The translations under genes were made by a program, and so were the position numbers. Shown in pieces: positions 9,353 to 18,035 of a stretch of DNA of 64,000 nucleotides. Position 1 is the stretch's first letter. Each line of letters begins with the position of its first letter. The DNA is taken from contig NZ_JASAMB010000005.1 in NCBI RefSeq assembly GCF_029948125.1, forward strand, positions 62,001 through 126,000, written 5' to 3'. This DNA is from Catellatospora sp. KI3 (GTDB taxonomy: Bacteria > Actinomycetota > Actinomycetes > Mycobacteriales > Micromonosporaceae). The notes beneath the pieces were generated by a model. The model saw only the letters and a list, made by a program, of their open reading frames with translations. It was not told where the DNA came from and made no database searches.

Positions 9353-10678
9353 ATGCTCACATCGCTGCGCCCTGCCATGAAACGGTGGCTGGCCGCACTC
9401 GTCGCCTGCTGCGCCGCCGTCGCGGCCGCGTTCGCGGTAACCCCGGGAACAGCGCAGGCCGCCCCGGCGTTCAAGGTGCTCGCCTTCTACAACGGCACCT
9501 GGGACGCCGCCCACATCGACTTCGACAAGGAGGCCAGGGTCTGGTTCCCCCAGATCGCGGCGCAGTACAACTTCTCGTGGGAGGCGACCACCGACTGGAG
9601 CCTGCTCAACACCGGCAACCTGGCCCAGTACAAGGTGATCATGTTCCTGGACGACGCGCCGCCGACCGCGCAGCGGGCCGCGTTCCAGACGTACATGGGC
9701 AACGGCGGGGCCTGGATGGGCTTCCATGTCACCGCGTTCAACACCGACCCGAACTCGTGGAGCTGGTACTACAACACGTTCCTGGGCACGGGCGCGTTCG
9801 TCTCCAACACCTGGGGCCCGACCAGCGTCACGCTGAAGACCGAGGACCGGGCGCACCCGTCGACGCTGCGGCTGCCCGCGACGTTCACCTCGGCCGTCAG
9901 CGAGTGGTACTCCTGGCAGCGCGACCTGCGCACCAATCCGGCCATCGACATCCTGGCCTCGATCGACCCGTCCAGCTTCCCGGTCGGCACCGATCCGAAC
10001 CAGTCCTGGTACAGCGGCTACTACCCGATCATGTGGACGAACCGCAACTACCGGATGCTGTACGCGAACTTCGGCCACAACGCGATGAACTACGACACGA
10101 ACACCCGGCTGTCGTCGACCTTCGCCAGTGAGGTGCAGAACCGCTGGCTGATCGACGGCCTGCTGTGGCTGGGCGGGGTCACCACCGGCCCCAGCCCGAG
10201 CGGCAACCCGTCGCCGTCGGCGTCGGCGTCGCCCGGCCCGATCTCGCCGACCGCCTGGTACAGCGTGGTGAACAAGGGCAACGGCAAGTGCGTGGACGCG
10301 CGCGGTGCCGCCTCGGCCAACGGGACGGCGATCCAGCAGTACACCTGCAACAGCACCAACGCGCAGTCGTTCCGGTTCACCCCGTCCAGCGGCGGCTACG
10401 CGCACGTCGACATCCGGCTGAACGCGGCCCAGTCGTGGGACGTGACCAACGTGTCCACGGCCGACAACGCGCCGATCCAGCTGTGGGCGTACGGCGGCGG
10501 CAACAACCAGCAGTGGCTGCCGGTGGCCGAGGGCGGCGGCTACTACCACTTCGTCAACCGCAACAGCGGCAAGTGCCTGGACGTGCCGGCGGCCTCGACC
10601 GCCAACAGCGTCCAGCTGGTGCAGTACGCCTGCAACGGCACCGGTGCCCAGTCGTTCCGGCTGGTGCAGCAGCCCTGA
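9353..10678 (+). CDS. Secreted ThuA-like protein with ricin-type lectin domain
   Basis: 441 residues. The ATG at 9353 follows GGAGGG. A Sec signal (KRW, hydrophobic stretch, AQA/APAF) precedes a ThuA/glutamine-amidotransferase-like domain (about 35-265) beginning FKVLAFYNGTWDAAH and containing GNGGAWMGFHVTAFN. A Pro/Ser linker (about 285-305) leads to a C-terminal ricin-B lectin domain with repeated GKCVD/GKCLDV and QSFR/QQW motifs. ThuA domains occur in trehalose-utilisation proteins and secreted glycoside-active proteins; the lectin suggests polysaccharide binding outside the cell. The exact substrate is unknown. Confidence 0.88.
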   Translation: MLTSLRPAMKRWLAALVACCAAVAAAFAVTPGTAQAAPAFKVLAFYNGTWDAAHIDFDKEARVWFPQIAAQYNFSWEATTDWSLLNTGNLAQYKVIMFLDDAPPTAQRAAFQTYMGNGGAWMGFHVTAFNTDPNSWSWYYNTFLGTGAFVSNTWGPTSVTLKTEDRAHPSTLRLPATFTSAVSEWYSWQRDLRTNPAIDILASIDPSSFPVGTDPNQSWYSGYYPIMWTNRNYRMLYANFGHNAMNYDTNTRLSSTFASEVQNRWLIDGLLWLGGVTTGPSPSGNPSPSASASPGPISPTAWYSVVNKGNGKCVDARGAASANGTAIQQYTCNSTNAQSFRFTPSSGGYAHVDIRLNAAQSWDVTNVSTADNAPIQLWAYGGGNNQQWLPVAEGGGYYHFVNRNSGKCLDVPAASTANSVQLVQYACNGTGAQSFRLVQQP

Positions 10679-10715: not shown

Positions 10716-10739
10716 TCTTCGTGCCCGCCGACCTGCCCG

Positions 10740-10903
10740 ATCGTTTGTGGACGGTGCGCAAGCATGCAAGTGTTTGGTAGATTTTTGCGACCAGACTGCA
10801 AAATCTCTATTAAACCTTGTCTGATGTCTGATGCCAGGGTGCTTGGTGTGACGGACGCGAGCGCCGCATCGGCTTGGAAAACGGGTGCCGACGGGGAGTA
10901 CGC
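10740..10903 (+). promoter_or_regulatory. AT-rich upstream region of the SARP gene with inverted repeat
   Basis: This segment is clearly AT-richer than its surroundings. AGATTTTTGC at 10779-10788 and GCAAAATCT at 10798-10806 form an inverted repeat around nine bases, and GCGCAAGCATGCAAG lies just before it. It probably contains the promoter and a regulator site, or a short leader hairpin, for the SARP gene at 10904. Which one cannot be told from sequence. Confidence 0.5.
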
Positions 10904-12547
10904 GTGAGGTTTCAGCTGCTTGGACCGGTCGTGGTGCGCCGCGACGACGAAGAGTTGCCGCTGGGGCCGGGCAAGCAGCGTGCGCTGCTGGCGGCCCTGC
11001 TGCTCGACCGGGGCCGGGTGGTCTCCACCGCCCGCCTCACCGAGGCGCTGTGGGACGGCGACCCGCCCAGCTCCGCCACCTCGAACATGCGGACCTACGC
11101 CTCGGGGCTGCGCTCGGTGCTGACCGACCGGCGCGGGCCCCGCATCACCAGCCGCAGCCCCGGCTATGTGCTGACCCTCGACGACGACGAACTCGACACC
11201 GACACCTTCACCGAGCTGTCGGCCACCGGCTACGCCGAGCTCGCGGCCGGGCAGCCCGCCCGCGCGGCGCAGGCGTTCGCGCGGGCGCTGGCGCTGTGGC
11301 TCGGGTCGGCCGGCGAGGACCTCGTCCGCTCGCCGTACCTGGACCAGCGGCTGGCCGCGCTGGAGGAGCAGCGGCTGGCCGTCACCGAGGAGTGGATCGG
11401 GGCCCGCCAGCAGCTCGGCGAGCATGCCGACCTGGTGCCGGAGCTGCGGCGGCTGACCTCTGGCCACCCGCTGCGCGAACGGCTGTGGTGCCAGCTCATG
11501 CTGTCGCTGTACCACACCGGGGACGTCGGCGGCGCGCTCGCGGCATACCGGCGGGCGCACGAGATCTGCGTCGAGGACCTGGGCGTGGACCCGGGGCCGG
11601 AGCTGGTGCGGCTGCACAAGGCGATCCTGTCGCGCGATCCGGTCCTGGGCGGCACGGCGCCGACGCGGTTCCCCGCGCCGCGGCCGGCGCTGGTGGTCGA
11701 GTCGCAGCGGACCCGTGAGGTGCCCCGGGAGCTGCCGGTCGCCGCTCCCGTCTTCGTCGGCCGGGACCGGGAACTGGCCGAGGTGGTCGAGGACGTGCTG
11801 GCCGGACTGGCCCGCCCGGCGCCGGGCGGCAGCCCGACCGTGGTGGCGGTGCACGGGCGGCCGGGCGCGGGCAAGTCGGCGCTGGTCCTGCACGCGGCGG
11901 CCCGCCTGGCGGCCCGCTTCCCCGACGGCCAGCTGTACGTGGACCTGCGGGCCGGGGGTGCCGACACGATCACGGTGCTGGGTCGGCTGCTGCGCGCGCT
12001 GGGGGTGCGCGACACGCGCGTGCCGGCGGGCGTGGACGAGGCGGCGGCGCGGTTCCGGTCGGTCGCCGCGGACCGGCGGCTGCTCGTCGTACTCGACAAC
12101 GCCGAGGATGAGGCGCAGGTCCGCCCGCTGCTCGCGCCCGCCAGCCAGAGCGCGGTGCTGGTCACCAGCGCCAGCAAGCTCACCGCGCTGGACTGCACCG
12201 CGCACCTCGAGCTCGGGGTGTTGGCGCCCGGACCGGCCGGGCGGCTGGTCGCGGAGCTGGCCGGGCTGGCGGCGGCGTCGATCGGGCGGCCGCTGGTGGA
12301 GCTGTGCGGCGGGCTGCCGCTGGCGCTGCGGTTCGTGGCGGCGCGGCTGGCGCTGACGCCGTACCGCGCGCCGGTGGAGCTGGCCCGCCAGCTGCTGGAG
12401 GAGTGCGCCCAGAGCGACGTGCTGGTCTGCGGCGACCTGCGCGTCCCGGCGGGCCTGCTGACCGGTGCCGGCTCCGTGGACCCGGCGGATCCGCCGGGGC
12501 CGGCACGTCTCACGCCGCCGCACGCCGTGGACGCCGGGCGTCCTTAG
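10904..12547 (+). CDS. SARP-family regulator with partial NB-ARC domain
   Basis: 547 residues from a GTG with GGGGAG five bases upstream. An OmpR-type winged helix (1-90, VRFQLLGPVVVRRDDEELPLG) and a bacterial transcriptional activator domain (about 95-240, ending GVDPGPELVRLHKAIL) are followed by a P-loop NTPase with GRPGAGKSA (about 319-327), a Walker-B-like LLVVLDNA and GGLPLALRF. The protein stops after the NB-ARC-like region with a Pro-rich tail and no TPR array, shorter than AfsR. It converges on the cysteine-rich peptide gene (24 bases between stops) and is 472 bases from the export operon, so it is a candidate regulator of that locus (inference). Confidence 0.9.
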   Translation: MRFQLLGPVVVRRDDEELPLGPGKQRALLAALLLDRGRVVSTARLTEALWDGDPPSSATSNMRTYASGLRSVLTDRRGPRITSRSPGYVLTLDDDELDTDTFTELSATGYAELAAGQPARAAQAFARALALWLGSAGEDLVRSPYLDQRLAALEEQRLAVTEEWIGARQQLGEHADLVPELRRLTSGHPLRERLWCQLMLSLYHTGDVGGALAAYRRAHEICVEDLGVDPGPELVRLHKAILSRDPVLGGTAPTRFPAPRPALVVESQRTREVPRELPVAAPVFVGRDRELAEVVEDVLAGLARPAPGGSPTVVAVHGRPGAGKSALVLHAAARLAARFPDGQLYVDLRAGGADTITVLGRLLRALGVRDTRVPAGVDEAAARFRSVAADRRLLVVLDNAEDEAQVRPLLAPASQSAVLVTSASKLTALDCTAHLELGVLAPGPAGRLVAELAGLAAASIGRPLVELCGGLPLALRFVAARLALTPYRAPVELARQLLEECAQSDVLVCGDLRVPAGLLTGAGSVDPADPPGPARLTPPHAVDAGRP

Positions 12548-12570
12548 CGGTCGTCAGGTGAGCGGGTCTG

Positions 12571-12774
12571 CTACGGGCAGTTGTTGACCGAGCAGTACCA
12601 CGCCGGTCCGCCCGGCATGGTGTAGCACCCGCAGAAGTTCTTGGGCGCGCAGCCCGCGCAGGTGACGCTGCCCAGGTTCGAGCAGGGCTGCCCGGTCTTG
12701 ATGCATGCCGAGGCCGTGGCCTGCGGCACGAACCGGCTCACGAGCCGGTCGGCGAGCATGCCGAGTTGGCGCAT
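12571..12774 (-). CDS. Cysteine-rich precursor-like peptide (67 aa)
   Basis: A short gene with a strong GGAGG five bases before its ATG. Residues 1-23 (MRQLGMLADRLVSRFVPQAT, then ASA) form an amphipathic, basic leader without a Sec-type hydrophobic core. They end in Ala-Ser-Ala, a typical signal-peptidase -3/-1 pattern. The remaining 44 residues start at Cys24 and hold eight cysteines (24, 31, 39, 42, 48, 50, 61, 66) with many Gly, Pro and Asn, enough for four disulfides. It diverges from the thioredoxin/ABC/peptidase/MauE operon. I infer a secreted, disulfide-rich peptide matured by that operon; I do not recognise a named family. A metal-binding peptide is the main alternative. Confidence 0.78.
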   Translation of the reverse strand: MRQLGMLADRLVSRFVPQATASACIKTGQPCSNLGSVTCAGCAPKNFCGCYTMPGGPAWYCSVNNCP

Positions 12775-13019
12775 GTGTCCTCCAGAAAGGTAGGGCGCGG
12801 CCCGGGTGGGCCGTGCGCCGCCACGCTATGGGCGCGGCCTACCGTCCCCGCCCACCGCGCGCACACCGCGGGGGTTCGAGGATCGGCACACCTCGGGGTT
12901 CCCGCGCAGGCTGCGGCGTCGTGCGCTGAATGTGCCGCCCGTGTACGCGCACCGCTCGGCGGGTGTACCGCCGCCGCCTAGCGTTCGCCCGTCGCTGCTG
13001 CGCAACACGAGGAGATGTC
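12775..13019. promoter_or_regulatory. Divergent promoter region of the Cys-rich peptide locus
   Basis: A 245-bp intergenic region serves the peptide gene (minus) and the export operon (plus). The same TAGCGT hexamer, fitting an actinobacterial -10 (TANNNT), occurs on both strands: 12979-12984 on plus, 36 bases before the ATG at 13020, and 12828-12823 on minus, 49 bases before the ATG at 12774. Both sit in similar GC-rich contexts (CGCC..TAGCGT..CG), suggesting that the two transcripts are made by the same RNA polymerase form. Confidence 0.5.
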
Positions 13020-13580
13020 ATGGCGTACGTCGTCGCCGCGGTCGTGGTCTTCGGCCTGATCGCGCTGCTGAACCTGCTGCTGACCTTCGGGGTGATCCGC
13101 CGGCTGCGCGAGCACACCGCGACGCTGGAGCTGCTGGAGAGCGGCACGGAGCTGGAGATCCGGGCCAAGCCGGGCGAGCCGGTGCTCGACTTCACCGCGG
13201 TCGCCACCACCGGCGAGACGGTGTCGCGGGTGGACCTGATGCCCGACACCGTCGTCGCGATGCTGTCGGCCACGTGCCCGCCCTGCCACGACGTGGCCGA
13301 CAAGTTCGTGCCGTACGCCGCGCAGCTGCCGCGCGAGCGGGTGCTGGCCGTGGTCTACGGCACCGAGGAGGAGACCGCCGAGCTGCGGGCGCGGCTGGAG
13401 CCGGTCGCCCGGGTGGTGGTCGAGGAGCAGGTCGACGGCGCCGTGACCAAGGCCTTCCGTAATAAGATCTACCCGTCGACGTTCGTGGTCGACGGCGACC
13501 GGAAGGTCTCGGCGAGCGGGTTCGACGTCGACGCGATCCGGTTGACCGTGCCCGTGCTGCGCCTGCCCGCCGCGGTCTGA
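13020..13580 (+). CDS. Membrane-anchored thioredoxin-like protein (MauD/TlpA type)
   Basis: 186 residues. An N-terminal transmembrane helix (about 2-24) anchors a thioredoxin-like domain outside the membrane. The redox motif is Cys86-Pro-Pro-Cys89 (SATCPPCHD). A cis-Pro region (KIYPSTFVVDGD) follows about 75 residues later, as in TlpA/MauD proteins. The start is the ATG at 13020 after GAGGAG. It is first in a four-gene operon and its stop overlaps the ABC start (TGATG). Likely role: forming or shuffling disulfides in the neighbouring eight-cysteine peptide (inference). Confidence 0.85.
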   Translation: MAYVVAAVVVFGLIALLNLLLTFGVIRRLREHTATLELLESGTELEIRAKPGEPVLDFTAVATTGETVSRVDLMPDTVVAMLSATCPPCHDVADKFVPYAAQLPRERVLAVVYGTEEETAELRARLEPVARVVVEEQVDGAVTKAFRNKIYPSTFVVDGDRKVSASGFDVDAIRLTVPVLRLPAAV

Positions 13581-15409
13581 TGCCGCCCGCTCCGCTGCCG
13601 CCCGTCCCGACGCGACGCGCGCTGGCGCTGTCGGCCGGGCTGATCCGGCGGGCGGCGCCGGGCCTGGCCGCGTCCTACCTGCTGGTGACCGCCGTGGTCG
13701 CGCTGCTGCCGGTGGCGGCCGCCAGCCTGACCAGGGCGGTCTTCGACGAGGTCGCCGCGGCGGCGCCGGTCGCGGTGATCGTCCGGTACGCGGGCCTGCT
13801 CGCGCTGACCGGGTTCCTGCTCGTGGTGGGGCAGCAGGTGCTGCGCTACCAGGGCGCCGAACTCGGTCGGCGGGTCGCCCGCACGGGGGTGGCCGACCTG
13901 TACACGGCGCTGGACCGCTTCGTGGGGCTGGCCCCGTTCGAGTCGCCGCGCACGGCCGACCGGATCATGCAGGCGCGGCAGGCGTCGTACGCGGCGGGCC
14001 AGACCGTGTCCGATGTGTCCACGCTGGTCGCGAGCGGGCTCACACTGCTGGGGTTCGTCGCGGCGCTGTGGGCGGTCAGCCCCGTCGCGACGGCGGTGGT
14101 GGTGGCCGCGGCGGCGCCGACCGTGCTGGCGGAGGCACGGCTGGCGCGGCGCCGCGCCGACCTGATCGGACGGATGACGCCGCACGACCGCCGCGAGCTG
14201 TTCTACCAGGCCCTGCTCGGCGACCCGGACGCCGCCAAGGAGATCCGGATGTTCGGACTCGGCGGCTTCCTGCGCGGCCGGATGCTGGCCGAGCGCGCCG
14301 CCGCCGACGACGGCCGCCGCCGCCTGGACCTGCGCGACGCGTCGGTGCAGGGTGCGCTGGGCCTGGCCGGGGCGGTGACGTCCGGGGCCGGGCTGGTGTG
14401 GGCGGTGCTCGCGGCCGGGCGCGGCGAGCTGAGCCTGGGCGACGTGGCGATGTTCGTCGCCGCCGTGGCCGGAGCGCAGGCGGCCACGGCCGGGCTGGCC
14501 CAGGGCGCCGCCGCCCTCCAGCTGCGGCTGGCCGGGCTGGCGCACCTGGCGGCCGTACTGGACGCCGGTCCGGAGCTGCCGGTGGGCGAGCGCCCGGCGC
14601 CGCCGCTGCGGCACGGCATCGAGCTGCGCGACGTGTGGTTCCGGTACGGCGAGGACCATCCGTGGGTGCTGCGCGGCGTCGACCTGGCCATTCCGGCGGG
14701 CACCGCGCTGGCCCTGGTCGGCCGCAACGGCAGCGGTAAGAGCACCCTGGTCAAACTGCTGTGCCGGCTGTACGACCCGACCCGCGGCGCGATCCTGTGG
14801 GACGGCGTCGACCTGCGCGAACTCGACCCGGCGTCGCTGCGCGCCCGGCTCAGCGGCGTGTTCCAGGACCACGTGCACTACGAGCTGAGCGCCGCCGACA
14901 ACATCGGCCTCGGGGACCTGGCCGTCTTCGCCGACCGGGCCGCGCTGCGCGACGCGGCGGGCCGGGCCGGGATCGCGCCGGTGCTGGCGGCGCTGCCCGA
15001 CGGCTACGACACCATGCTGACCCGTACCTTCACCTCCAACGCCGACCGCGACGACCCGAGCACCGGGGTGAACCTGTCCGGCGGCCAATGGCAGCGGCTG
15101 GCGCTGGCGCGGGCGTTCCTGCGTACCGTGCCGGATCTGATGGTTCTGGACGAGCCCAGCTCGGGCCTGGACCCGGAGGCCGAGCACGACGTGCACACCC
15201 GCGTGCTGGCGTACCGGCAGGGGCAGACCAGCCTGCTGATCTCGCACCGCCTCAACGCGGTCCGCGACGCCGACGTGATCGCGGTGCTCGACGGCGGCCG
15301 CGTCGCCGAGCGGGGCGGCCACGACGAGCTGCTGGCCGCGGGCGGGGTCTACGCCAGGCTGTTCCGGCTCCAGGCCAGCGGCTACCAGCAGCCGGTGGAG
15401 GTGCCGTGA
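13580..15409 (+). CDS. ABC transporter, fused membrane and ATPase domains
   Basis: 609 residues: a six-helix exporter-type membrane domain (about 20-310), then an ATPase with Walker A GRNGSGKST (about 381-389), signature LSGGQWQR (about 500), Walker B LMVLDEP (about 519) and switch SHRLNAV. There is no C39 peptidase domain at the N-terminus, so leader removal would need another enzyme; the next gene encodes an S26 peptidase. It overlaps the genes on both sides by 1 and 4 bases. Probable cargo is the cysteine-rich peptide. Its half-transporter architecture implies a homodimer. Confidence 0.9.
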   Translation: MPPAPLPPVPTRRALALSAGLIRRAAPGLAASYLLVTAVVALLPVAAASLTRAVFDEVAAAAPVAVIVRYAGLLALTGFLLVVGQQVLRYQGAELGRRVARTGVADLYTALDRFVGLAPFESPRTADRIMQARQASYAAGQTVSDVSTLVASGLTLLGFVAALWAVSPVATAVVVAAAAPTVLAEARLARRRADLIGRMTPHDRRELFYQALLGDPDAAKEIRMFGLGGFLRGRMLAERAAADDGRRRLDLRDASVQGALGLAGAVTSGAGLVWAVLAAGRGELSLGDVAMFVAAVAGAQAATAGLAQGAAALQLRLAGLAHLAAVLDAGPELPVGERPAPPLRHGIELRDVWFRYGEDHPWVLRGVDLAIPAGTALALVGRNGSGKSTLVKLLCRLYDPTRGAILWDGVDLRELDPASLRARLSGVFQDHVHYELSAADNIGLGDLAVFADRAALRDAAGRAGIAPVLAALPDGYDTMLTRTFTSNADRDDPSTGVNLSGGQWQRLALARAFLRTVPDLMVLDEPSSGLDPEAEHDVHTRVLAYRQGQTSLLISHRLNAVRDADVIAVLDGGRVAERGGHDELLAAGGVYARLFRLQASGYQQPVEVP

Positions 15410-15840
15410 TCGCGCTGTCCGCCGTGGCGCTGGTGCTGCTGCCGCTGCTGGCGGCCTGGTACGCGCGGGCGCGCCTGATCGCGGTGACCGTCGAGGGGAC
15501 GAGCATGGAGCCGACGTACGCCGAGGGGGACCGGGTGCTGGTGCGCCGGGTCCGGCCGGGCCGGGTGCGCCGCGGCGACGTGGTGGTGCTGGACAACCCG
15601 TTCGGGCGCGGCACGGTCTCGCAGTGGGTGATCAAGCGGGCCGCCGCGCTGCCGGGCGACCCGGTGCCGCGCGCGGAGTACCCGGCCCTGGCCGGCGTCG
15701 CCGAGCAGCGGATCCCGGCAAGGCGGATCGTGCTGCGGGCCGACAACCCGCACGGCGGTGACTCGCGCACGCTCGGCTGGGTCGACTCGGCGACCGTGGT
15801 CGGCATCGTGATGGGACGGCTGCCCCGAGGCGGCCGCTGA
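15406..15840 (+). CDS. Small S26 signal peptidase
   Basis: 144 residues from a GTG overlapping the ABC stop, with GGAGG upstream. One N-terminal transmembrane helix (2-20) is followed by the S26 boxes: the Ser33 nucleophile in GTSMEPT, the general-base Lys77 in VIKRAAALPGD, and a GGDSRTLGWV box. It is much shorter than housekeeping LepB and resembles IMP-type or specialised processing peptidases. Translational coupling to the ABC exporter suggests it removes the Ala-Ser-Ala leader of the eight-cysteine peptide at the outer membrane face (inference). Confidence 0.88.
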   Translation: MIALSAVALVLLPLLAAWYARARLIAVTVEGTSMEPTYAEGDRVLVRRVRPGRVRRGDVVVLDNPFGRGTVSQWVIKRAAALPGDPVPRAEYPALAGVAEQRIPARRIVLRADNPHGGDSRTLGWVDSATVVGIVMGRLPRGGR

Positions 15841-15855
15841 GCTGTGGAGGCGACA

Positions 15856-16404
15856 ATGACTGAGCTGCTGGGCGCCGTGGACGCCGCGAGCCGGGTCGCG
15901 ACGGGGCTGGTGTTCCTGGTCGCCGCCGTGGCCAAGCTGCGCGACCTCGGTGCGTTCACCCGGTCGCTGCACCCGTTCCTGACCGTGCCCGCGCCGGTGT
16001 ACCGGGTGCTGGCCGCGACCGTGGTCGCGGCGGAACTGGCGGCGGCCGCGCTGGTCGCCGTGCCGGCGACCGCGGTCTGGGGGTTCGCGCTGGCGCTGGC
16101 GCTCACCGCCGCCTTCGCGGTCGGGATCGGGCGGGTGCTGCGGCGCGGAGTGCAGGCCGTCTGCAACTGCTTCGGCGTCGCCGACAGCCGGCTCAGCCGC
16201 CGCCACCTCGTCCGCGACCTGCTGCTGGCGGTGCCGGCGCTGGCCGGGCTGGCCGCGGCGGCCGCCGGTACGCGACCGCAGTCGCCGGTCCAGTGGCTGG
16301 CCGGTACCGCGGTGGGTGCGCTCTGCGCGCTGCTGGTGATCCGGTTCGAGGACCTCGCCGACCTGTTCGCGCCCGCCCGCAAGGGGGCACCGGTACGTCG
16401 TTGA
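15856..16404 (+). CDS. MauE/DoxX-like redox membrane protein
   Basis: 182 residues with four hydrophobic helices. It has Cys103-Asn-Cys105 in AVCNCFGVAD, equivalent to the conserved CxCFG of MauE proteins, which are needed for disulfide formation in methylamine dehydrogenase light chain. I use the ATG at 15856 after TGGAGG, although a GTG 12 bases earlier is in frame. It ends the operon and probably recycles the CPPC thioredoxin-like protein by passing electrons into the membrane. No methylamine dehydrogenase gene is present, so the pathway has been put to another use here. Confidence 0.85.
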   Translation: MTELLGAVDAASRVATGLVFLVAAVAKLRDLGAFTRSLHPFLTVPAPVYRVLAATVVAAELAAAALVAVPATAVWGFALALALTAAFAVGIGRVLRRGVQAVCNCFGVADSRLSRRHLVRDLLLAVPALAGLAAAAAGTRPQSPVQWLAGTAVGALCALLVIRFEDLADLFAPARKGAPVRR

Positions 16405-16454: not shown

Positions 16455-18035
16455 ATGCCCAGCGTGACCCAGACGCCGACGGTGCCCCGGCAGGTGCGGA
16501 CCCGCCCCGCGCCCATGCATGCCCACCTGCGGGAAGCCGCCCGGCGCAGACTCGCGCCGCTGGACCGGGTGCTGGACCCCTACGCGTGGTACGCCGCGCT
16601 CGCGGTCACCCTGATCGCGGGCGTGCTGCGGCTGAGCAACCTGGCCCAGCCGCCCGGCAAGATCTTCGACGAGACCTACTACGCCACGGACGCGCACTGG
16701 CTGTGGGAGAAGGGCTTCGAGTGGAACGAGGCGGAGAACGGCCCCGGCTACGTCGTCCACCCGCCGCTCGGAAAGTGGATCATCGGGCTCGGTGAGCAGC
16801 TGTTCGGGTACAACGAGACCGGCTGGCGGTTCACCGCCGCGATCTTCGGCACCGCGTCCGTGCTCATGCTCGTCCGCATCGCCCAGCGCCTGTTCGGGTC
16901 CACGGTGCTGGCGGTCGCGGCCGGGCTGCTGCTGGCCTTCGACGGCATGCACTTCGTGCTGTCGCGCACCGCGCTGCTCGACATCTACCTGATGTTCTTC
17001 GTGCTGGCCGCGTTCGGCGCGGTGGTGCTGGACCGCGACGCCAGGCGCCGCCGCTGGGCGGCGTTCCTCGACGGCGGCGGCAACCCCGCCGGATCGGGCC
17101 GGTCGAGCCGCCCGCCGCGCGCCGTGCCGTGGTGGCGGCTGGCCGCCGCCGTCCTGATGGGCTGCGCGCTGGCCGTGAAGTGGAGCGCGCTGGCGTTCCT
17201 GCCGGTGCTGGTCCTGCTGATCCTGTGGTGGGAGGTCGGCGCCCGGCGCACGGCCGGGGTGCGCCACCCGGTCCGCGACGCCATCCTCGACGAGACCGGC
17301 TGGCTGCTGGCCTGCGTGCCGATCGTGCTCGGCGTCTACCTGGCCTCGTGGAGCGGCTGGCTGCTCACCGACGGCGGCTTCTACCGGCACTGGCTGCGCG
17401 ACAGCGGCCAGCCCGAGCCGCCGGTCTGGGGCGCGCTGCGCAACCTGTGGTACTACCACCAGCAGGCGTACGGGTTCCACAGCGGACTGCAGACCCCGCA
17501 CGCGTACCAGTCGGCGCACGGCTGGGGTCCGATCCAGTGGCTGCTGCAGGGCCGGCCGGTGCTGTTCTACCGCACCGGCGACCTCGCCTGCGGCGCGCCC
17601 AGCTGCATGGCGTACGTGCTGATGCTGGGTACCCCCGTGCTGTGGTGGAGCTTCATCCCCGCGCTGCTCGCGGCGGTCTGGTTCGGCGTCGCCCGCCGCG
17701 ACTGGCGTGCCGCCGCGGTGCTGGCCATGGTCGGCGCGGCGCTGCTGCCCTGGTTCGCGTACCCGGACCGCACCATGTTCAGCTTCTACGCCCTGCCCGC
17801 GCTGCCGTTCCTGATCCTGGCGGTGGTGTTCGTGCTCGGCTCGATCATGACGGCGCCGCCGGGGCGGCCCCGGGACGAGGACCGGGTCATGATCGGCGCG
17901 ATCGTCGCCGGGACGTACGTGGTGCTGGTCGTGCTCGCCTTCACCTGGTTCCATCCGCTCTACGTCGGGCAGTCCATCCCGTTCGAGGACTGGTCGCGCC
18001 ACATGCTGCTCGGTGACCTGTGGGGCAAGGACTGA
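16455..18035 (+). CDS. Dolichyl-phosphate-mannose-protein mannosyltransferase (Pmt, GT39)
   Basis: 526 residues. Polyprenyl-phosphomannose-dependent protein O-mannosyltransferase with about 10-11 transmembrane helices. The family signature is in the first loop: the IFDETYYATDAHW segment with the catalytic Asp-Glu pair, then VVHPPLGKW. It also has GMHFVLSRTALLDIYLMFF and a late PWFAYPDRTMFSFY. The enzyme glycosylates Ser/Thr of secreted proteins as they cross the membrane. The ATG at 16455 or a GTG three codons on could be used. It lies 50 bases after the MauE-like gene; a link to the secreted peptide is possible but Pmt is common in actinobacteria on its own. Confidence 0.93.
   Translation: MPSVTQTPTVPRQVRTRPAPMHAHLREAARRRLAPLDRVLDPYAWYAALAVTLIAGVLRLSNLAQPPGKIFDETYYATDAHWLWEKGFEWNEAENGPGYVVHPPLGKWIIGLGEQLFGYNETGWRFTAAIFGTASVLMLVRIAQRLFGSTVLAVAAGLLLAFDGMHFVLSRTALLDIYLMFFVLAAFGAVVLDRDARRRRWAAFLDGGGNPAGSGRSSRPPRAVPWWRLAAAVLMGCALAVKWSALAFLPVLVLLILWWEVGARRTAGVRHPVRDAILDETGWLLACVPIVLGVYLASWSGWLLTDGGFYRHWLRDSGQPEPPVWGALRNLWYYHQQAYGFHSGLQTPHAYQSAHGWGPIQWLLQGRPVLFYRTGDLACGAPSCMAYVLMLGTPVLWWSFIPALLAAVWFGVARRDWRAAAVLAMVGAALLPWFAYPDRTMFSFYALPALPFLILAVVFVLGSIMTAPPGRPRDEDRVMIGAIVAGTYVVLVVLAFTWFHPLYVGQSIPFEDWSRHMLLGDLWGKD

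Follow-up and report, generated by a model that had tools for sequence, protein, structure and literature searches.

Operons for sublancin and other glycocins bring together a leader peptide, an ATP-binding cassette (ABC) exporter and thiol oxidoreductases, and their product is disulfide-bonded. Here we describe a cassette in a 64,000-nucleotide stretch of the soil actinomycete Catellatospora sp. KI3 (contig NZ_JASAMB010000005.1, positions 62,001 to 126,000; hereinafter the window), in which the gene for a small Cys-rich leader peptide stands beside genes for a TlpA/MauD-like thiol oxidoreductase, an ABC exporter, an S26-type protease and a MauE-like membrane protein. We consider it probable that this cassette is a dedicated route for exporting, cleaving and oxidizing one disulfide-rich, perhaps bacteriocin-like peptide. 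In the glycocin systems, the C39 domain of the exporter cuts after a double-glycine leader, whereas here there are a separate S26 protease and leaders ending in Ala-x-Ala (AxA); further, MauE replaces BdbB and no glycosyltransferase lies within the operon. The exporter was earlier read as lacking C39, and this peptidase domain is indeed not among its 12 Pfam matches at an expect value (E) ≤1; with leaders ending in AxA, the system falls outside the C39 double-glycine exporter class.

A closer parallel is offered by three candidate families from Streptomyces reported with decRiPPter, each of which has a precursor with at least eight cysteines and mauE, with one also having mauD (PMC7794033). 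There are no other mau genes in these families and a role for mauE in the modification of the precursor has been proposed (PMC7794033). The window resembles them in that mauE accompanies a precursor with eight Cys or more. Moreover, Streptomyces viridosporus T7A is named in that work, and S. viridosporus NRRL 2414 (L144, with a six-Cys core) has the system described here. On the other hand, no leader consensus, genomes with many precursors or characterization is described in the portions of the paper considered here, and its main text makes no mention of S26 or signal peptidase, unlike the system at hand. Compared by description only, these families are likely identical to the present one. Thus, the view of the sequence-only reading that this is not a named system holds, but with a partial precedent in the Streptomyces mauE candidates. 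Searches of open-access full text turned up no account of the leader, of an S26 link or of many-precursor arsenals.

Two further systems are comparable in part. The maturation of methylamine dehydrogenase also combines MauE with a TlpA/MauD-like partner and a disulfide-rich substrate (PMC7794033), but differs in that here a small variable leader peptide and ABC and S26 genes adjoin. Actifensin and actinomycesin are likewise actinobacterial, with a leader of about 30 residues, a short disulfide-rich core and several copies in some genomes; however, their accounts feature a six-Cys defensin frame, a GA/GxE cleavage motif, a subtilisin-like protease and several ABC genes, and neither thioredoxin nor "signal peptid" appears as a term in the main text of the paper (PMC6989792). 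The frame of the defensin-like bacteriocins, C-X5-12-C-X3-C-X9-10-C-X4-5-C-X-C (PMC6989792), was also tried on the window peptide, whose spacing of 6-7-2-5-1-10-4 does not fit it. The features of the cassette are as follows (aa, amino acids):

12571..12774, minus strand: precursor peptide gene, 67 aa, ATG start, eight Cys at residues 24–66, Shine-Dalgarno GGAGG
12706..12774, minus strand: leader, residues 1–23, MRQLGMLADRLVSRFVPQATASA, amphipathic, ending in P-x3-A-x-A (ASA), as judged from alignments, hydropathy and moment
12574..12705, minus strand: core, residues 24–67, 44 aa, eight Cys with spacing 6-7-2-5-1-10-4, predicted to be released by cleavage after ASA
13020..13580, plus strand: TlpA/MauD-like thiol oxidoreductase, membrane-anchored, with CPPC (Cys86, Cys89) and an AhpC/TSA domain
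13580..15409, plus strand: ABC exporter, 609 aa, MsbA-like fused half-transporter without a C39 peptidase
15406..15840, plus strand: S26 protease of the signal-peptidase-I type, 144 aa, GTG start, Ser33/Lys77
15856..16404, plus strand: MauE-like membrane protein with CxCFG (CNCFG), Cys103 and Cys105
10904..12547, plus strand: SARP-family regulator, BTAD + NB-ARC, a probable regulator of the cassette going by family scan, co-occurrence and shared loss

The SARP gene and the peptide gene are arranged tail to tail, while 245 bases separate the start of the latter from the TlpA-like gene on the opposite strand, with Shine-Dalgarno-like sequences preceding both. The TlpA stop overlaps the ABC start by 1 base, the ABC stop overlaps the S26 start by 4 bases, and MauE follows after 15 bases. 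Every part named by the sequence-only reading is present where that reading placed it: the 67-aa peptide with eight Cys and a leader ending in Ala-Ser-Ala is read directly from the DNA, and both the 144-aa S26 protein (TIGR02227, 58.5 bits versus a cut-off of 47) and the MauE-like CNCFG protein (PF07291, 88.2 bits versus 27) score above their family-model cut-offs. The TlpA-like protein, too, combines an AhpC/TSA score above the cut-off (PF00578, 29.5 bits versus 26) with a CxxC motif, which served as our test for the redox gene, and has, as judged by eye, a single N-terminal hydrophobic segment. The peptide itself is assigned to no NCBIfam or Pfam family; its best match, to the spider-toxin family Toxin_34 (E 0.3), was taken as chance, as was a likeness to saxiphilin (PDB matches at E 0.18 or worse).

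Used as a query against 250 genomes of its taxonomic family, the window peptide gives weak matches, in 16 genomes including its own at E≤0.01. Several of these matches adjoin the same partner genes, and it is the leader that they have in common and not the core. Alignments of the Cys-free leader (A1 with 16 rows and A3 with 38) yield the family consensus MxxxLxxLGDRLLxxxVPxxxAxA, and a search with A1 finds matches at E≤0.01 in 90 of the 250 genomes, spanning 30 of 44 genera; at most 34 candidates were scored per genome in this search, making the matches per genome lower bounds. The same search at the level of the class matches 33 of 394 genomes at E≤0.01, with a Cys-rich core in 19, none in 11 and no locus to inspect for 3. 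Since 11 of the 33 give no Cys-rich core, this weak tail is partly due to chance.

We then surveyed 217 sequences of at least 7 kilobases (kb), of which 216 are loci and one is a part of the window, for leader matches at E≤1e-4. A core with at least four Cys follows 156 of 157 distinct leader matches, the exception (L176) having two. After removal of similar cores, 122 of the 127 distinct ones have an even number of Cys (binomial 1.6e-30 if independent), and P-x3-A-x-A ends all 127 leaders. These figures carry a bias, as the seed leaders and some loci were first found via Cys-rich peptides and a DNA pattern scan fixed the Pro and Ala codons. With the alignments' own leaders excluded, 106 of 107 cores have at least four Cys and 103 an even number; likewise, P-7 and AxA are present in 74/74 distinct cores from outside the pattern scan, though the model itself favors them. 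The first Cys lies 0–9 residues past the AxA; in 127/127 cores, the chain either terminates at its last Cys or continues for at most five residues beyond it. Among curated families, none is matched by more than one of 40 A2 members at E≤0.1, their best E being 0.061 in NCBIfam and 0.021 in Pfam.

The composition of the cores (Cys 17.8%, Gly 11.1%, Tyr 8.8%, Trp 3.7% and His 1.4%) bears on two alternatives to a secreted antagonist. TlpA-like proteins are able to act as reductants, and CC and CxC pairs are present in many cores, which would suit exported metal chelators whose cysteines are kept reduced by TlpA/MauE. We regard this as very improbable, as an even Cys count is expected for disulfides but unneeded for metal sites, His is scarce, and MauE in its classic role has been speculated to aid disulfide formation (PMC7794033). 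The richness in Cys, Gly and Tyr with some Trp, the many copies in some genomes and the membrane-anchored secretion machinery might also point to disulfide-cross-linked peptides of the cell surface or of a spore or hyphal coat. However, a shared repeat or fold is usually retained among structural proteins of such a type, whereas the 127 cores lack a common Cys spacing, with 108 different spacings among them, and the position of the last Cys leaves little room for an anchor. Hence, a coat function appears improbable, if less so than chelation.

A search beginning from MauE, independent of the leaders, was used to ask the reciprocal question in the 20 best loci not already in the set (L385–L404). 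Four of these have MauE without partners and 16 have TlpA. Of the latter, 11 have leader peptides by the model, four have variant leaders recovered by inspecting Cys-rich frames, and one (L398) has none. The model missed these variants, at L396, L397, L402 and L403 (RRAMTNIAWLVAPSEKAGA, KLVQKVLPKAQGKA, LLKLVVPTADAKA), and leader counts are therefore lower bounds. All 15 peptides have P-7 and 14 have AxA, with the remaining one having GKA. In a genus set also chosen by MauE (L058–L070), seven of nine loci with TlpA have a leader peptide; among them, the shortened leader of L062 escaped A3 but was picked up with the first model and on visual inspection. Combining both sets, 22 of 25 MauE-selected loci with TlpA carry a Cys-rich leader peptide, which speaks against homologous operons usually lacking such a gene. 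The four MauE genes without partners (L385, L386, L392 and L393) are window-like, with no TlpA, ABC, S26 or leader peptide nearby.

Selection was assessed in nine equal-length orthologs, mostly from one genus, taken to be Micromonospora, where the nonsynonymous-to-synonymous ratio (pN/pS) is 0.12 in the leader and 0.45 in the core, with all ten Cys fixed; one loop, chosen after viewing the alignment, has a pN/pS of 0.87. These low values indicate that the gene is translated and kept, with one loop free or changing. In an ortholog group (L326–L332, L336), the peptide gene has a stable location near pheS/pheT-like genes (by eye). The conservation of the peptide gene, on which the earlier reading had been staked, is thus seen in the leader, in the Cys parity and in the purifying selection on one ortholog group. 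Short frames with at least six Cys in their last 45 residues are not rare in G+C-rich DNA (431 of 13,514, real peptides included), and the peptide might accordingly be a chance Cys-rich frame beside an operon serving another substrate. On sequence grounds, we reject this as next to impossible, given the recurrence of the leader in 30 of 44 genera, the Cys parity, the purifying selection, the reciprocal co-occurrence and the Shine-Dalgarno-like sequence that precedes most of the scattered copies (by eye).

The partner genes recur with the leader across actinomycete genomes. Within 8 kb of 151 leader-peptide loci, we found TlpA at 111, ABC at 113, S26 at 106, MauE at 86 and SARP at 83, as against 9, 9, 7, 11 and 9, respectively, at 66 other loci, some of them chosen by MauE. 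Of 77 regions, each 12 kb or longer and picked by leader rank, two were dropped as having no leader at E≤1e-4; the remaining 75 have, within 8 kb, TlpA at 61, ABC at 59, S26 at 57, MauE at 46 and SARP at 47. Without nine regions of two array genomes (n=66), these counts are 61, 59, 57, 46 and 45. ABC has TlpA immediately ahead of it in 97 of the 101 cases scored and S26 immediately behind it in 57 of 96. The active sites are conserved: Ser33 of S26 in 107/107 and Lys77 in 105/105 homologs; Cys86 and Cys89 of TlpA each in 111/112 co-located homologs (CxxC in 112/115 sequences), alongside an invariant or nearly invariant Pro152; and both Cys of the MauE CxC in 86/86 co-located homologs. Regarding regulation, four genomes of 8–11 Mb have 34–39 BTAD genes each, and so chance alone would place about 5–7% of points within 8 kb of one; the presence of SARP at 83 of the 151 loci bears out the suggestion that the adjacent SARP gene may be linked to the cassette.

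In the DNA pattern scan of named genomes, which gave at least 117 loci, 80 of them named, the peptide is present in 40 of the 80 named loci, all from actinomycetes by title among the matches listed. The genera represented among these include Micromonospora, Actinoplanes, Microbispora, Nonomuraea, Actinomadura, Streptomyces, Nocardiopsis, Thermobifida, Pseudonocardia and others. The peptide was absent from the 12 non-actinomycete pattern matches listed, including two too short for scanning.

The leaders were judged against the hydrophobicity usual for Sec signals. The best 11-residue Kyte-Doolittle mean is 0.84 in the window leader, and the maximum across 127 leaders is 1.90, which we consider insufficient for a Sec-type signal. 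They are also amphipathic, with a mean moment of 0.57 as against 0.31 in shuffled versions. Both measures agree with the non-Sec amphipathic leader that had been proposed from the sequence. The catalytic Ser/Lys pair of S26-family proteases faces outward, and signal-peptidase-type enzymes cut after AxA. We infer the export route, the cleavage site, disulfide formation, regulation and antagonism as follows. The 23-residue leader would steer the ribosomal precursor to the ABC exporter. Cleavage would fall to a separate enzyme, since the exporter has no protease and S26 is the only one in the gene set; this membrane-anchored protease is predicted to cut after Ala-x-Ala, during or after export. 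The membrane-anchored TlpA-like CxxC protein could then make or shuffle disulfides, with MauE, through its membrane CxC and perhaps linked to quinone, holding it in a working redox state. The window product would be released as a 44-residue, four-disulfide peptide, with a predicted monoisotopic mass of 4493.80 Da when fully oxidized. ABC and S26 would form the core machine, to which TlpA and MauE are commonly, not always, adjacent, and SARP may turn the cassette on. This picture of a dedicated pathway for export, cleavage and oxidation is backed by the reciprocal co-occurrence and the conservation of leader and Cys parity. The sequence-only reading did not extend to the size of the family, to precursors scattered through genomes, or to loci and genomes whose redox pair lies away from ABC and S26.

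Several observations weigh against it. No partner of the five lies within 8 kb in 22 of the 151 leader loci, and MauE was not found at 65, though this is partly explained by many loci being 8-kb cuts. Three MauE-selected loci with TlpA (L068, L069 and L398) have no peptide by the filters used; L068 and L069 have TlpA-ABC-MauE without S26, and their redox pair perhaps serves a different substrate. At L075 (9002–9211), an eight-Cys leader peptide lacks AxA at the usual place; it was left out of the 157 matches as its alignment ends early, and its 17-kb locus has TlpA and ABC, with S26 and MauE not found. In the other 10 genomes of the genus, nothing matches the window peptide at E≤0.01, although other leader peptides do occur there. 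A single-sequence AlphaFold2 model of this peptide, consulted for a possible inhibitor cystine knot, has three short strands in the core at low confidence (mean predicted local distance difference test score 56.5). Among frames of at least 90 aa at 113 loci, no widely recurring family offers an immunity candidate: a dedicated immunity or extra modification gene was sought, but the commonest further families are an ABC ATPase type (12/113 loci) and a large permease-like protein (6/113; both named by eye), and clusters of 9–10 loci are the pheST-like neighborhood and its shadow frames (by eye). Moreover, an ortholog group fixed beside pheST-like genes with one variable loop could fit a conserved signal too.

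These last points bear directly on what the products do. Through the same pathway, they might be signaling or developmental peptides acting as extracellular cues for the producer's lineage. The dearth of immunity candidates, the fixed gene location, Cys and leader of one ortholog group and the SARP neighbors are all compatible with this. However, with 108 Cys spacings among 127 cores and 16–39 leader matches in individual genomes, as many receptors would be hard to match, and no recurring receptor gene was seen beside the operons (same frames and loci). We consider signaling unlikely, although less so than a coat role. The likeliest role, given the diversity of the cores and the SARP neighbors, is an antagonistic, bacteriocin-like one, for which we see the prospects as roughly balanced: a bacteriocin-like arsenal fits since the leader is retained while the cores differ greatly, both from one genome to another and inside a single genome.

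Genomes with many leaders differ in architecture. Actinorhabdospora filicis (G017) yields 39 matches to the leader at E≤0.01; of the 21 distinct ones that were read, a Cys-rich core follows 20, and the remaining one is readable only six residues further. The 20 readable peptides are mostly preceded by a Shine-Dalgarno-like sequence (by eye). This genome has one family exporter at E≤1e-70, adjoining an S26 gene (L421:2289–4660), with no TlpA, MauE, SARP or leader peptide within 7 kb; MauE-family genes are present elsewhere, while TlpA was sought in the exporter's 7 kb only. No common promoter motif connects the scattered copies, as nothing shared rises above shuffles upstream of the 20 peptides of this genome and 11 of G035. 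The latter has 25 leader matches and G090 has 16, with two family exporters (E≤1e-70) each. In contrast, leader matches and exporter-like genes (same exporter threshold) number 22 each in Virgisporangium aurantiacum (G082), though the weakest of the latter may belong to other ABC types. We infer a range of architectures, at one end with roughly a machine for each peptide and at the other, going by the counts, with one serving many. We tentatively posit, rating it slightly below an even prospect, a venom-like combinatorial arsenal, in which one leader would deliver dozens of scattered, unrelated cores through a single central ABC-S26 machine, with one oxidation pair outside the cell shared among them. 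Conotoxin-like animal families provide an analogy only, with a kept leader, a variable core on a Cys framework and many paralogs; no sequence relation is claimed, and export here is bacterial.

The cassette is also subject to loss. In the sister species G008 (L058) and G009 (L064), it is missing by different deletions, corresponding to window positions 10722–15645 and 12025–16284, respectively, between flanks 87–93% identical. SARP is lost along with it, wholly in G008 and partly in G009. The two deletions thus indicate that the cassette is accessory and lost as a unit. A gene for a ThuA-domain protein with a ricin-type beta-trefoil lectin domain (window 9353–10678, plus strand) lies just upstream of SARP, and its DNA is retained in both sisters. 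Downstream of the cassette is a protein O-mannosyltransferase gene (window 16455–18035, plus strand), which was considered as a member but is taken as a mere neighbor, because each of 11 genus genomes has two copies and this copy is kept in the cassette-less sisters. Repeats that might bind SARP were looked for between the peptide gene and the operon; those present are short, GC-rich and unconvincing.

The directly searchable leader thus defines a large family of secreted peptides, probably rich in disulfides and unnamed in NCBIfam and Pfam, and finds members that would be lost in the noise of G+C-rich DNA if Cys-rich frames were the only criterion of a search. More than 100 very different peptides with the same type of leader across the actinomycetes suggest a large unexplored set of disulfide-rich peptides. 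The combination of an ABC exporter, a separate signal-peptidase-type protease and MauE-based oxidation would be a division of labor absent from the bacteriocin systems compared here. If the ABC-S26 pair of A. filicis serves all 39 matches, the leader would be a portable tag for the export and folding of Cys-rich peptides in laboratory Gram-positive hosts, and the function of MauE would become testable on a tiny substrate. Should the arsenal be real, new disulfide-rich weapons would be gained at the price of one small gene each, with no new biosynthetic machinery.

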